Shown: piece by piece, positions 2,809-8,916 of the stretch
Position numbering within the stretch: position 1 is the stretch's first letter
How the letters are laid out: the number at the start of each line of letters is the position of its first letter
Origin: a virus
IMG/VR virus record: IMGVR_UViG_3300017957_000032
Coordinates: 1 to 36,355 of that record
Length of the DNA stretch: 36,355 nt
Strand: one strand, 5' to 3'
Notes under the pieces: generated by a model
Database searches by the model: none
What the model saw: the letters and a program-made list of their open reading frames with translations, nothing else
Told to the model about the DNA's origin: nothing
Position numbers and translations under genes: made by a program

Positions 2809-2816
2809 TATTTAGC
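2809..2816 (-). promoter_or_regulatory. Late-promoter-like box GCTAAATA before gp16
   Basis: GCTAAATA on the minus strand includes the stop codon of gp4 and ends 4 nt before the gp16 ATG. It is a one-base variant of the late consensus and parallels the box before gp17. Confidence 0.4.
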
Positions 2817-3246
2817 GCCCGCCTGTGTGGAACATATCTTTTTCAGTTATGATTCTAAAAGCAATACCTTTAGATTTACACCAGTTTCTAGCCGCTTCCC
2901 ATTTTACTTGATTCAATGCCCAATGCAATTGATTTCTTCTGTTACGTCCTGTTTTTTCTTTTAATGTATGCATTTCAGGCTTTATTTCTATTACTTCAGT
3001 TTTTTGTTTACCATTTTGATCTACATAGTGTATAAAAAAGTCAGGTACATAAATTGTTTGTTTGCCAGTAAAAGGATTTCTATAAGGAATCTTAATCGCT
3101 TCACTGGCCCACTTGTATATACTTGGATTCTCGTCACAAAACTTCATAAAGTGAAATTCCCAACTGCTACGATATGTAGGCATACTACCGCCTATATATT
3201 TGTCAGGGTTTTTTGGTCTGAATTTACCCTGAGCATACTTGGTCAT
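2812..3246 (-). CDS. 4: Head completion nuclease gp4
   Basis: T4 gp4 (also called gp50) is a small head-completion protein acting after packaging, before tail joining. This 144-residue protein is close to the T4 length (about 150). It shows a PD-(D/E)xK nuclease pattern: 'RSSWE' with E30, 'YVPDFFI' with D69, and 'EVIEIKP' with E87 and K89, a spacing like TnsA-type endonucleases. The basic C-terminal half includes 'KEKTGRNRRNQ'. The start at 3246 overlaps the stop of the upstream protease gene in a TAATG arrangement, so translation is probably coupled. gp16 follows after 7 bp. The motifs make the nuclease fold convincing; the head-completion role comes from family and context. Confidence 0.9.
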   Translation of the reverse strand: MTKYAQGKFRPKNPDKYIGGSMPTYRSSWEFHFMKFCDENPSIYKWASEAIKIPYRNPFTGKQTIYVPDFFIHYVDQNGKQKTEVIEIKPEMHTLKEKTGRNRRNQLHWALNQVKWEAARNWCKSKGIAFRIITEKDMFHTGGR

Positions 3247-4814: not shown

Positions 4815-6536
4815 TTAAACTATGTTTATTGTGTTACCCATTACAGAATGGATTTGACATTGATAGTAAAGTGTGCTAGGAGCACTCATTGGAACTGTAA
4901 AACTAACAGTTCCTACTGCTGCACCGTTGTTAGTAACACCTGTGTTATATTGTGCACCGCCGTTGCTTACTCTAATATCAAATGGATGTCCTGTTGCATC
5001 TACTGCAAAATCATATCTTTCACCACGTCTTAGATATAATACAGGATTATCTTCTGCTATCGGAAACCAATTATTTCCAGTGTCACTAACTGTAAATGCT
5101 GTATTAAGGCCGTTGTCTTGTACATCAAAAATATGTTTAATTACAGCACCATCCATAGTAATGTCATTTGTTACAGTTGGAGATGATGCACTAACATATC
5201 CTCCTGTGCTGTGATCTCCCCAACTAACCGCAGTGTCCCACTGACCTACTTTTGCATCAGTAATTGTGTTTGTACCCATGTCAATATCGTTTAGGTTGGC
5301 ATCTAGTGTGCCACCTAATTGTGGACTTGTATCTTGTACAATATCAGTTAAGCCGCCGCCTGATGCACCTAGTGCTACCCATGAAAGTCCATCATACACT
5401 TCTACTGCTTGTGTAGACGTATTATAAATTAAATCACCATCTGTTGCTAATAATGCATTTCTTTCTGTGGTAGTAACATTATTTAAATTCAACGGAGAAG
5501 TTACTTGTGTTCTATTTGTAGCTTCTAAAATAAGATCATTACCTGCTCTAAGATAGAATGGTCCAGTACCTTGAATTTCTAAATCTGCACAGTTTACAAC
5601 ATCATCGACATATATTCCGCTTTGGAAGTTTACACTAGGAACAACAACAATTTGACTAGAGTCGTCTGTATCAATTGTGTTTGCAGAAAATTCAAAATTT
5701 GCAATGTCAGGAACTACAGGCTGGTCTGTTAGATCATTGTACGATCCACTGAAAAGTAAATTACTGTCGTCTGTTAAATCATTAACGTCAGTAGGAATAT
5801 CAGGAACATTTACAAAGTTTGTATAATCAATGTAATAACTTCCCGGTTGTCCGTTTAATGTAGTAGCATCTAAGCCGCCGCCTCCTGATGTTGCATCATC
5901 TGCTGCTGCCCATTCAAACCCATTCCATTTTAAAACTTGTCCTGAAACTGCTGATGTACTTGCATCACCTGCAACATCACTTAAATCTTGTATACTTGTA
6001 GGAACAGTAGGTCTTCCGGTTAAACTAGAATAAGCACCGTCAAATAACAGTACGTCTGCATCAGTAAGTTGATTTATGTCTGTAGGAATAGTAGGAGCAC
6101 CAGTAAGACTGCTATACAGTCCGTCAAATAACAAATCACCTTGGTCGGTAAGTTGGTTGATATCCGAAGGAACAACAGGAGCGCCTGTCAAATCGTTATA
6201 TTGTCCGCTGAACAATAAACTAGATGCATCTGCCAATTGGTTAATGTCTGTAGGAATTGCAGGGGCGCCTGTTACATTTAACCAATCTAAATAGTATGAT
6301 CCGTCTTGTCCGTCTAGCGTATCTGCATCAGATGTTCCGCCTACTGCCGGTGCCCATTCGTCTCCGTTCCATTGTAAAACTTCACCTACATTCGGTGTTA
6401 CACTTGCTACATCTGATAAACTTGCTAGTGTACCGCTTTCTAATGCAACAATACGAGTATCAAGATCGGTAAAGTTACCGTCTAATTCGTCAAATGTAAG
6501 TGTTGATCCTTTGACTGTTCTTAACGTAATTGCCAT
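4815..6536 (-). CDS. Repeat tail-fibre-like protein with C-terminal cupredoxin domain
   Basis: This 573-residue protein is probably a trimeric fibre or virion appendage. An N-terminal segment 'MAITLRTVKGSTLTFDELDG' is followed by a 'VLQWNGDEW' module, a 'DADTLDGQDGSYYLDW' fibre motif and three 28-residue repeats beginning 'DINQL' at 97, 125 and 153. A second, diverged copy of this block starts near 199 ('GQVLKWNGFEW'). A mid region carries 'GDLIYNTSTQAVEVYDGLSW'. The last about 75 residues form a cupredoxin-like domain in which H517, C560, H563 and M566 supply a full type-1 copper ligand set with the amicyanin spacing C-x2-H-x2-M. The start at 6536 has AGGAG and lies 10 bp after the preceding gene; the protease gene follows after 9 bp. 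Fibre assignment is from repeat style and context; copper binding is predicted from motif. Confidence 0.85.
   Translation of the reverse strand: MAITLRTVKGSTLTFDELDGNFTDLDTRIVALESGTLASLSDVASVTPNVGEVLQWNGDEWAPAVGGTSDADTLDGQDGSYYLDWLNVTGAPAIPTDINQLADASSLLFSGQYNDLTGAPVVPSDINQLTDQGDLLFDGLYSSLTGAPTIPTDINQLTDADVLLFDGAYSSLTGRPTVPTSIQDLSDVAGDASTSAVSGQVLKWNGFEWAAADDATSGGGGLDATTLNGQPGSYYIDYTNFVNVPDIPTDVNDLTDDSNLLFSGSYNDLTDQPVVPDIANFEFSANTIDTDDSSQIVVVPSVNFQSGIYVDDVVNCADLEIQGTGPFYLRAGNDLILEATNRTQVTSPLNLNNVTTTERNALLATDGDLIYNTSTQAVEVYDGLSWVALGASGGGLTDIVQDTSPQLGGTLDANLNDIDMGTNTITDAKVGQWDTAVSWGDHSTGGYVSASSPTVTNDITMDGAVIKHIFDVQDNGLNTAFTVSDTGNNWFPIAEDNPVLYLRRGERYDFAVDATGHPFDIRVSNGGAQYNTGVTNNGAAVGTVSFTVPMSAPSTLYYQCQIHSVMGNTINIV
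5996..6250 (-). repeat. Three in-gene 84-bp (28-residue) tandem repeats
   Basis: Successive units encode the pattern D-I-N-Q-L-x-D, then L-L-F-x-G-x-Y-x-x-L-T-G-x-P-x-x-P, starting at residues 97, 125 and 153. A degenerate unit follows at about 181 and another at about 250. They are diverged at DNA level, so this is an old expansion of a fibre shaft motif. Confidence 0.8.
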
Positions 6537-6546
6537 TGTATTTCTC

Positions 6547-7002
6547 CTACGCTACATATCCAGGGGCAACATATCCCGGAGTTATGTATCCACTTGTTTC
6601 TTCTGTTGGTTCTGGTAACAATGGAAAATCAAAGCCGTCGACGTTTCGTGCTTCAAAATTATTTGTTACGTCTACATCTGCTTTGAATCCTAATTTTGTT
6701 ATAGAACTTCTACTGTTATTTAATATGACTGCTACTAAATTTGTTAATTGTACTTTATCATAGCCTTTTAAAGTATCTAATAAATCAAAAACAGGTATTC
6801 CATCTGCTTTTGCTTGTGAAAGTATGACTGATGCTATGCTTATAGAAGCAACTTCTTCAAATCCTCTTTTGACAAAAAATCCTACTACTGCATCGATATC
6901 TGCCGCATTATAATGAAGTGATCTATCAAAGAATGAATTAAAAGTTCTTCTTGTGTCTAAATTACTATCATTTACTACTGTTATGTTTTCATAAGTAGAC
7001 AT
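6547..7002 (-). CDS. Small conserved-type structural protein of unknown function
   Basis: The 151-residue protein has no catalytic motif that I recognise. A helical core spans about 12-105 and includes 'FNSFFDRSLHY', 'DAVVGFFVKRGFEEVA' and 'VFDLLDTLKGYDKVQLTNLVAVILN'. The C-terminal tail is short and odd: Pro-rich, then Gly-Tyr-rich, ending in a duplicated 'PGYVAPGYVA'. Its start overlaps the stop of the tail-tube-fold gene by one base (TAATG), so the two are coupled and probably made in fixed ratio. The next gene begins 10 bp after its stop. Similar proteins occur, from memory, in the structural clusters of marine T4-like phages, but I cannot assign a T4 gene number. A virion or tail assembly role is inferred from context. 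Confidence 0.75.
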   Translation of the reverse strand: MSTYENITVVNDSNLDTRRTFNSFFDRSLHYNAADIDAVVGFFVKRGFEEVASISIASVILSQAKADGIPVFDLLDTLKGYDKVQLTNLVAVILNNSRSSITKLGFKADVDVTNNFEARNVDGFDFPLLPEPTEETSGYITPGYVAPGYVA

Positions 7003-8213
7003 TATGCAGATTCCTGTCTAGGAACAACATAAGTTTTTCCGTTTACATTTACTAATTTTTCATTTTTGTTATCGTAACTGCCCTTAAAGGGTCTTGAGTT
7101 AGCAGGTAAATTATCTGTTAAATCGGTTCTTTGTTGTGCAGATCTTTGTTCTGCTCCTGCTGCTTTTATATCTGCCCAATTAATACCACCTTGACCTTGC
7201 TGATTTATTCCTCTAGATGTAAGTCCTTGATTTACAATAGGTTGTAAACCTAATCTATCTAGATTTAATTTATCTCCTAAAAATTTAGAAGCAGATGTTT
7301 TTATAAAATTTTGTGCAAATGCTTCTATAGAATTAGTTCTTCCTTTTTGCGGAGACACACTTCCAAACGGTGTAGTTGTAACTCTACTGGTGCCAAAACT
7401 ACTGCCTCCTTCTTGTATAGGACTTGGTCTAGTATCATAGTGTCTTTGATCTCCAAAAGATGTAGGTGCTACACCTTCTAATAGTTCTCCTCTTTCGTAA
7501 TGAACTGTTTCGTATGCTACTGTCATTGAATTAGTTGAAAATTCACTTCCTTCTGATTGCACATTATCGTGTTGGAAATCTTCTACTAATGGATTAATTA
7601 GTGTAAAGCATGTATAGTGTGTTTTTTTATTCAAAGGATGCAATTGGAAAATTTGAATAGAATCAAAAAATTGATACATTTTATTTGGTTTATCTAAACC
7701 ATATCTGTAATTAAAGTTTTGAAAATATGTATTATTAGATCCAAATGCACTTCTTCTATATCTTTCGTCTGGAGCAATATCTGGTGCTGCTGAAGCACTT
7801 TGTTTTTGATGATCGCCGTCTGCATAATAATATCTAAAATATGCTTCCCACAACAATGTTGTTAGCCCTGCATTATCATCATGAAATTCAATTCTTACTG
7901 GCTGATAATCTATTCTTGTTTGTAAAAGTTTTTTTCTATTATACTGATTTAAAACTTCTACTTGTGGTCTATATTTTGGCAGTTCTGCACTTTTTGCTAA
8001 AATATGAATGTCTTCTTGTGTAAAATTATCAATGAGCGTGTCTGGTCTAACATCTGGGTTTATATTCAAAACTACATGATAGAGAAACTTGTGCTTAGGA
8101 GCAAGACGCATATTGTTAGAGCGGAATACTCTAGATGCATGATCATAATCGCCTAAATTACCTTTAGGACCATTATAGCTTTTAATATTATCAAAAAATC
8201 CTGTGAACGCCAT
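7002..8213 (-). CDS. Tail-tube-fold protein (gp19/gp54-like), possible tube initiator
   Basis: The 403-residue protein has features of the contractile-tail tube fold: 'FLYHVVLNI' (about 44-52), 'LAKSAELPKYRPQVEVLNQYNRK' with the usual LP-then-V-x-x-N pattern (about 71-93), 'YQPVRIEFHDDNAGL' (about 101-115), and 'MTVAYETVHYERGELL' (about 230-245). T4 gp19 is 163 residues; this protein is longer, with a Gly/Ser/Gln-rich C-terminal half that looks disordered. A baseplate tube initiator like gp54 (about 320 residues in T4) or a second tube-like protein are the best candidates; sequence alone does not decide. It follows a strong terminator and has its own GATAAATA box only 4 nt before the ATG, with no ribosome site visible. 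It is translationally coupled to the 151-residue gene. Confidence 0.7.
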   Translation of the reverse strand: MAFTGFFDNIKSYNGPKGNLGDYDHASRVFRSNNMRLAPKHKFLYHVVLNINPDVRPDTLIDNFTQEDIHILAKSAELPKYRPQVEVLNQYNRKKLLQTRIDYQPVRIEFHDDNAGLTTLLWEAYFRYYYADGDHQKQSASAAPDIAPDERYRRSAFGSNNTYFQNFNYRYGLDKPNKMYQFFDSIQIFQLHPLNKKTHYTCFTLINPLVEDFQHDNVQSEGSEFSTNSMTVAYETVHYERGELLEGVAPTSFGDQRHYDTRPSPIQEGGSSFGTSRVTTTPFGSVSPQKGRTNSIEAFAQNFIKTSASKFLGDKLNLDRLGLQPIVNQGLTSRGINQQGQGGINWADIKAAGAEQRSAQQRTDLTDNLPANSRPFKGSYDNKNEKLVNVNGKTYVVPRQESA

Positions 8214-8298: not shown

Positions 8299-8916
8299 TT
8301 AACCAGTTGTACCAGTTCCAATTGTTCTAGGAACTGCTGCTCCTACTCCTTCACCATTTGGTGTTTGTACAGCATTATCATACTGTATTGTAACTGATGT
8401 TTGTACTGGTTCACTGTTTGCATATGCTAAGGAATTATAGTTGACTTCTGTTAAGTAGCAACCATAAATTTCCCAAGTTTCTAACACACCTGCTTCTGCT
8501 GCTCCATTACCGCCATCTAAAATTTCAATGTTAGTTTGGAACTTATAATCAATACCAGATGCAGCACTTGCTTGATTAATAAAGTCAAATTGTTTCTGAA
8601 GTTGTTCGCCAACTAGTTTTTGCACACTGTTGTTTACATCTTCACGTAATGTAATTGTAATTGGGTTCCATGTGTGTTTACCTGCCAAATGTACAGTTGA
8701 ATTGTATACCGGAATTGGCATGTTTTCGAACGTCAAGTTCGGTCTTGCAGCATCGATAACTTGTTTGGTTAATTCAGTAGTTGATGCAGTAACGCCAAAG
8801 TTAATAAAGTTTACTCTAAAACGGTATTGTAGTTTTGGCATTAACAAGCCTTCAGATGTTGCACTCTGGTCGCTTGCTAATGGAACACTTAATTTTGTTA
8901 ATGATGAGATTGCCAT
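8299..8916 (-). CDS. 19: Tail tube protein gp19
   Basis: gp19 forms the inner tube through which DNA leaves the head. The 205-residue protein (T4: 163) shows family hallmarks: 'LQYRFRVNFINFG' (about 29-41), 'RPNLTFENMPIPVYNSTVHLAGKHTWNPITITLREDVNN' as a conserved block around 74-112, 'LVGEQLQKQFDF', 'LETWEIYGCYLTEVNYNSLAYANSEPVQTSVTIQYDNA' in the C-terminal half, and a Gly/Thr-rich tail. The start at 8916 has AGGAG and a properly spaced GATAAATA late promoter. It lies directly downstream of the sheath gene, as in T4, and ends before a strong terminator, so gp18 and gp19 form one unit with an extra internal promoter for gp19. Confidence 0.95.
   Translation of the reverse strand: MAISSLTKLSVPLASDQSATSEGLLMPKLQYRFRVNFINFGVTASTTELTKQVIDAARPNLTFENMPIPVYNSTVHLAGKHTWNPITITLREDVNNSVQKLVGEQLQKQFDFINQASAASGIDYKFQTNIEILDGGNGAAEAGVLETWEIYGCYLTEVNYNSLAYANSEPVQTSVTIQYDNAVQTPNGEGVGAAVPRTIGTGTTG

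Follow-up and report, generated by a model that had tools for sequence, protein, structure and literature searches.

We propose that the tail-fibre-like protein encoded in the viral DNA analysed here (the window, meaning the whole 36,355-nucleotide stretch, IMG/VR record IMGVR_UViG_3300017957_000032) has at its end a true cupredoxin module, with His517, Cys560, His563 and an axial Met566 as the ligands of its type-1 copper site, that this module is swappable on the tail proteins of marine phages, and that it acts as a docking head set by copper; to this reading, taken as a whole, we assign a probability of about 0.6. An earlier note made from the letters alone had recognized the fold and the ligand set, and both find support in the predicted structure, in fold and profile searches, and in the conservation seen among divergent relatives. 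Its observation is confirmed, being correct as described, stronger than its author could show and less singular than its author thought. The fold, the ligand set and its conservation, the C-terminal place and spread of the module, and a derived loss of three ligands are established here by computation.

The C-terminal domain of the fibre protein and its predicted fold

All four ligand residues are found in the translated fibre gene (Table 1). The domain had earlier been placed at 4815-5045 (residues 498-573); that the protein ends in a cupredoxin domain stands, and the span proves too short because both the homology and the structural model start near residue 467 (nt 5138), giving a domain of about residues 467-573. 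A six-frame translation of the window contains three C-x2-H-x2-M motifs: that of the fibre itself and two on the plus strand, at 4830 and 11340, which are antisense to the genes of the fibre and the sheath. A chance occurrence of the motif is ruled out by the fold and the relatives. The claim that the other fibre proteins lack the domain holds within the window, as a search of all open frames of at least 50 aa recovered no second copy (best other E 0.28). Two contigs of near relatives, of 256 kb and 236 kb (L416 and L417), each contain a second, weaker copy in a 4811-aa open frame, which retains the GHPF and has a loop without the Cys, His and Met.

Table 1. Positions in the window of the fibre gene, its predicted ligand residues and the neighbouring tail genes
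Feature	Position	Strand	Basis or remark
Head-closure/TnsA-like protein	2812-3246	(-)	PHROG "head closure" and Pfam TnsA-like endonuclease N-terminal domain
S8 subtilase, 519 aa	3246..4805	(-)	PF00082, E 4.2e-32; phrog_9158
Tail-fibre-like protein, 573 aa	4815..6536	(-)	phrog_677 match; N-terminal repeat/shaft part varies between relatives; C-terminal cupredoxin module
Cupredoxin module, residues 467-573	4818..5138	(-)	Relatives' profile, AlphaFold2 model, structure search, ligand alignment
M566, predicted axial copper ligand	4839..4841	(-)	Column: M 171, K 3, Q 2, R 1, gap 11 of 188
H563, predicted copper ligand 3	4848..4850	(-)	Column: H 175, Y 1, N 1, gap 11 of 188
C560, predicted copper ligand 2	4857..4859	(-)	Column: C 176, S 1
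H517, predicted copper ligand 1 (GHPFDI)	4986..4988	(-)	Pairs with rusticyanin GHSFDI
Tail tube	8299-8916 and 7002-8213		Pfam/PHROG matches
Tail sheath, 1109 aa	8986-12315	(-)	Closest to jumbo phages Atu_ph07, Phosso, PA5oct-type, SCTP-2

When searched by itself the fibre protein matched no copper family in Pfam and no cupredoxin among the PDB sequences, with weak unrelated matches only in both cases; hence, the match to copper proteins needs a profile or a fold. A profile built from 11 relatives recovered copper proteins as 57 of its 58 PDB matches at E <= 10, the best being plastocyanin 1m9w (E 9.2e-4) and the sole non-copper match a PKD-domain protein. The copper proteins comprised plastocyanin, rusticyanin, amicyanin, pseudoazurin, azurin, auracyanin, copper nitrite reductase and laccase-type oxidases, and the alignment to rusticyanin places each of the four ligand positions opposite its counterpart (His, Cys, His and Met). 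Single-sequence Pfam scans of the same 11 relatives detected, weakly, PF00127 in 5 and PF13473 in 3, and one bacterial member (L132) rises above the PF00127 (Copper-bind) cut-off over the module (23.4 vs 21.2 bits). PF00127 gave no match in the contigs of three relatives and was positive in 6 of 14 control genomes, indicating that the Pfam model is too distant to find the module. We also observed sub-threshold matches to PF25489, the At5g54830-like domain of plants, over the module of the A1 members and of L092, L093, L097 and L100, a sequence-level hint that the module family might have a eukaryotic branch.

An AlphaFold2 model computed from the last 107 residues together with 44 viral relatives (45 sequences) has a mean pLDDT of 97, a pTM of 0.89 and eight strands, and we regard the cupredoxin fold of the module as practically certain. 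Foldseek searches of the PDB with this model returned 47 matches at E <= 0.001, with E down to 7.7e-5, headed by rusticyanin, the N-terminal cupredoxin domain of the Hyphomicrobium nitrite reductase (CuNIR), AcoP, plastocyanins and oxidase CuA domains; the TM-scores on the query are moderate, about 0.43-0.61 among the matches listed. VIA-align gave a Z of 10.4 over 92 residues for the CuNIR cupredoxin domain (2dv6) and of 10.1 over 91 residues for rusticyanin (2cal). In the model: 1) H517 (model residue 51) directly precedes the strand 53-56. 2) C560 (model residue 94) closes the strand 89-94. 3) H563 and M566 (model residues 97 and 100) lie in the loop ahead of the strand 101-106. As far as the predicted model goes, this placement at a strand start and at a strand end with the following loop is the arrangement of a type-1 site, as in rusticyanin. 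A library of predicted structures of viral proteins (BFVD) yielded 65 matches at E <= 0.001, mostly phage proteins. Among the BFVD matches are also A0A481Z6J5, A0A481YVH3, A0A481Z7Q7 and others, beta-sandwich proteins of Pithovirus-/Marseillevirus-like giant viruses whose fold resembles the module.

Conservation and loss of the ligands

We aligned 188 distinct domains and set aside 25 with a gap in at least one ligand column; these are split insertion-bearing or truncated copies, with Lys at the Met position in three and Arg in one. The earlier expectation that homologues would keep the ligands is borne out by the remaining 163 domains aligned at all four positions, 160 of which retain H-C-H-M, a count that is biased for the first His and the Cys because the search patterns included one or the other, and that is unbiased for H563 and M566, which lay outside the patterns. 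The three exceptions read H-C-Y-M (L086), H-C-H-Q (L095) and T-S-N-Q (the second copy in L161). The conserved set covers viruses and several bacterial phyla at 35-60% identity. The C-x2-H-x2-M spacing is present in 169 of 170 copies with a readable loop, the remaining one having four residues between C and H, and the axial Met is present in 171 of 177 non-gap copies. Paralogues encoded by the next gene of some phages (L068, L069, L071) have Lys at the Met position.

A ligand-blind scan, in which only residues 20-48 of the module served as query and the best 80 of 108 relatives were kept, recovered 54 distinct tails. Two of them run off their contig, and 49 of the other 52 read H-C-H-M; this set is fairly close (median pairwise identity 72%), so that conservation within it is by itself weak evidence. 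In the three exceptions, two N-S-N-M and one D-S-N-M, the His, Cys and His are replaced together and the Met is kept. A tree of 150 domains, based on few columns and with many forks open, groups the copper-less rows into one clade (100/96), sister to the intact L022 (100/99) and nested in a virus-only group of 74 rows (96/90). The clade without His, Cys and His is thus a derived loss inside an intact clade, and in its members (L197/L200/L207) the module is still located at the fibre end. A model of the copper-less domain has a mean pLDDT of 63.5, too low to be of use, with three sequences only and an incomplete start as input.

We then ran the loop patterns YYx[C/S]xx[H/N]xxMGN over viral contigs and checked each match for lying in the domain. 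All 80 kept C/H matches did so (at least 78 distinct), as did 12 of 22 S/N matches (7 distinct), 3 of 8 C/N matches (1 distinct) and 3 of 11 S/H matches (1 distinct). Thus, the Cys and the second His are lost together far more often than singly, and partial states exist; a strict all-or-none loss is ruled out by the one C/N and the one S/H sequence type. Fisher tests on this table give p of 1e-8 for distinct sequences and 2e-4 for our own lineage grouping, values that are descriptive only, as the tests take related sequences as independent and the intact cell is a lower bound (at least 78). By eye, the first His is also missing in 5 of the 7 S/N types, and L265 and L260 retain it with the Cys and second His gone. 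The occurrence of L260 (H-S-N-M) beside L283 (H-S-H-M) suggests, at the level of sequence, that one subfamily may be decaying stepwise. Loss of H, C and H as a block is what is expected of a metal site, and it implies that the fold can persist without metal. In the copper-less copies that persist, the metal is therefore unneeded for the fold or for the place of the module on the fibre, and since all three of His, Cys and His are gone from a small derived clade, the module can do its work metal-free in some phages.

Spread of the module and its genomic setting

The module is widespread and not, as the earlier note had implied, peculiar to this phage; its uniqueness is ruled out by matches in phage records, viral contigs and bacterial genomes. 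A search of 50,697 phage records gave 363 matches at E <= 0.01, of which 351 carry cyanophage names (Synechococcus 275, Cyanophage 55, Prochlorococcus 21); the other matches are Marine 6, Pelagibacter 2 and four more. The scan of viral contigs found at least 571 relatives, the best 80 of which were kept, and the genome scan 109 confirmed relatives, of which 80 were kept. The bacterial carriers, mostly metagenome-assembled, belong to Bacteroidota, Alphaproteobacteria (OCS116/PS1 groups), Myxococcota, Acidobacteriota and others, and by eye 8 of 9 bacterial proteins start with a signal or lipoprotein leader; at least one member of the genome scan (L157), with a fibre-type copy and a subtilase-type frame, looks phage-derived. 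In cyanophages the usual carrier is a protein with the annotation gp9 baseplate wedge/tail fibre connector. The module stands close to the protein N-terminus in the podovirus P-SCSP2 (L005), follows collagen-like repeats in P-SSM2 (L004) and ends S8 subtilases in S-H9-1 and S-CAM4. It lies within 5 residues of the C-terminus in 150 of 160 viral copies, and in fibres that share it the upstream sequences do not align with one another while the module does; hence it is a swappable end module. In several cyanophage-type loci the gene after gp9 encodes a second, insertion-bearing cupredoxin-like domain (L002 2798-, L003 2816-, L068/L069/L071, L253, L265, L267), with ligand sets that are full, Lys-for-Met or copper-less.

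In the window the fibre gene belongs to a block of tail genes that comprises the sheath, tail tube, fibre, subtilase and head-closure/TnsA-like protein. The double match of the last of these may reflect a fold common to nuclease and connector or a misnamed family. We reject a cyanophage origin of the window because the sheath is closest to those of Agrobacterium, Sinorhizobium, Pseudomonas and Salicola jumbo phages and because a contig of 256 kb contains the same region. The subtilase gene is 95% identical in the 236 kb viral contig and 100% identical within the 256 kb one, indicating that the window is a fragment. Of the 79 ligand-blind loci, 51 have a relative of the window subtilase next to the module, as do 15 of 80 loci from the viral contigs (the best 80 of at least 571 relatives); in six loci over all sets the two share one open frame. 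The phrog_9158 profile has 696 positions; the match of the window subtilase stops at position 544, and positions 591-695 are covered by the fibre module of L013, implying that what is one protein elsewhere is split here between two neighbours. The subtilase is absent from all six copper-less contigs (6-26 kb) and likewise from the contig of the intact sister L022, so that no link between its absence and the loss of the ligands can be claimed.

Possible role of the copper site and comparison with known systems

It is likely that the module binds copper when this is offered; that it does so in nature we infer. The bacterial cytosol holds little free copper, and for this reason we suppose that the metal would be loaded outside it, after lysis. 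Copper would then fix the ligand loop and the patch around a surface-exposed His563 into a docking face, and the module would act as an adhesion or docking head for the host surface or for another part of the tail, such as a long fibre. In T4 the C-terminal side of gp9-type connectors faces the long fibre, and the module could sit either at a distal tip or at a joint to another fibre. We favor docking over electron transfer because unrelated phages have the module on structural tail proteins, at the end of the chain, and because it persists there in copper-less form; electron transfer as its function appears improbable. That copper matters for attachment or for tail assembly is possible, and on balance somewhat doubtful. 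Somewhat more tentative is a fuller scenario in which marine phages carry a loaded type-1 copper center at the business end of the fibre and attachment is tuned by copper taken from seawater or the lysed cell; lineages such as L197/L207 would then have come to dock without copper, by exchanging all of the ligands on an unchanged fold.

The copper-less clade, which retains the module at the fibre end, is also what would be expected if the cupredoxin fold served only as a beta-sandwich for adhesion or assembly, its ligands being inherited from an ancestor that bound copper and staying empty in the virion. The second copper-less copy in the 4811-aa open frame of the near relatives and the rise of copper-less or partly copper-less copies in several sequence types point the same way. 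However, leftover ligands would hardly be kept in 160 of 163 distinct domains across viruses and several bacterial phyla at such divergence, and the three residues H, C and H tend to vanish together, unlike drifting unused positions; we therefore consider this explanation unlikely. In another reading the copper of the module does redox work, be it electron exchange at the cell surface by a plastocyanin-like carrier on the virion, or copper detoxification or scavenging. Its nearest relatives of solved structure carry electrons or are domains for electron transfer, and cyanophages also have petE, the plastocyanin gene, as a separate metabolic gene (PMC3037559). Nevertheless, no redox partner gene is seen beside the module within the window, the module is part of a structural tail protein rather than a soluble one, and the phages that carry it include a non-cyanophage jumbo type, which together make a redox role improbable. 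A His/Cys/His/Met site can take other metals in vitro, and metals are not told apart by the computations used here, so that the four residues might hold zinc, or copper in a non-blue geometry, and only stabilize the tip. Yet both the ligand spacing and the fold match type-1 copper proteins, and the residue at the axial position is nearly always Met (in L095 it is Gln, which some blue copper proteins are known to use instead of Met), making this alternative improbable.

The presence of the same module on tail proteins of many marine viruses suggests that copper may matter for the cell attachment of some of them. If the module is metallated, a very common marine phage group would have a tail metalloprotein and free copper would become a variable in phage adsorption; were copper indeed at the fibre tip, infection would depend on copper speciation. 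The copper-less relatives provide a natural control set. The module also gives a function-bearing fold to a part of the cyanophage "gp9"-type proteins, which are recorded as hypothetical or connector. To our knowledge, viral copper centers are known as metabolic genes such as plastocyanin and not in the attachment apparatus. Our literature search, which covered open-licence papers, turned up no publication on a cupredoxin in a phage tail, although one could exist elsewhere; a giant virus with a blue copper enzyme is on record.

Among characterized copper proteins, the earlier assignment of the ligand set to the amicyanin/plastocyanin type is upheld for the loop, which has the amicyanin length, and fails for the first-His strand, where the GHPFDI of the module is closest to the GHSFDI of rusticyanin. 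Rusticyanin of Acidithiobacillus thus shares the cupredoxin fold (at the Z of 10.1 given above) and this strand, and differs in its loop, C-x4-H-x4-M against C-x2-H-x2-M. It is also a soluble periplasmic electron carrier, whereas the module is part of a phage tail protein. Amicyanin has the same C-x2-H-x2-M loop as C560-H563-M566, and its chains match the profile at E 0.004 and up; however, it is a soluble, single-domain partner of methylamine dehydrogenase, and neither the partner dehydrogenase nor the soluble single-domain form has a counterpart seen here. Plastocyanin, the best PDB match of the profile, agrees in fold and in the four ligand types but has two further residues between the second His and the Met in its loop, and its cyanophage version, petE, is a separate metabolic gene, whereas the module is a domain of a structural protein. 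Among phage families, PHROG 677 (cyanophage gp9, "baseplate wedge tail fiber protein connector") is matched by the fibre over its C-terminal part, module included (E 1.4e-29, residues 180-573 on profile positions 179-409 of 412), whereas the N-terminal 179 residues of the fibre have no match to the first part of the profile; L002, L003 and L006 match it nearly full length with the module present, and its description does not mention a copper domain. Finally, the S8 subtilases of PHROG 9158 in S-H9-1 and S-CAM4 end in the same C-terminal module, whereas in the window the subtilase is without it and the adjoining fibre has it.
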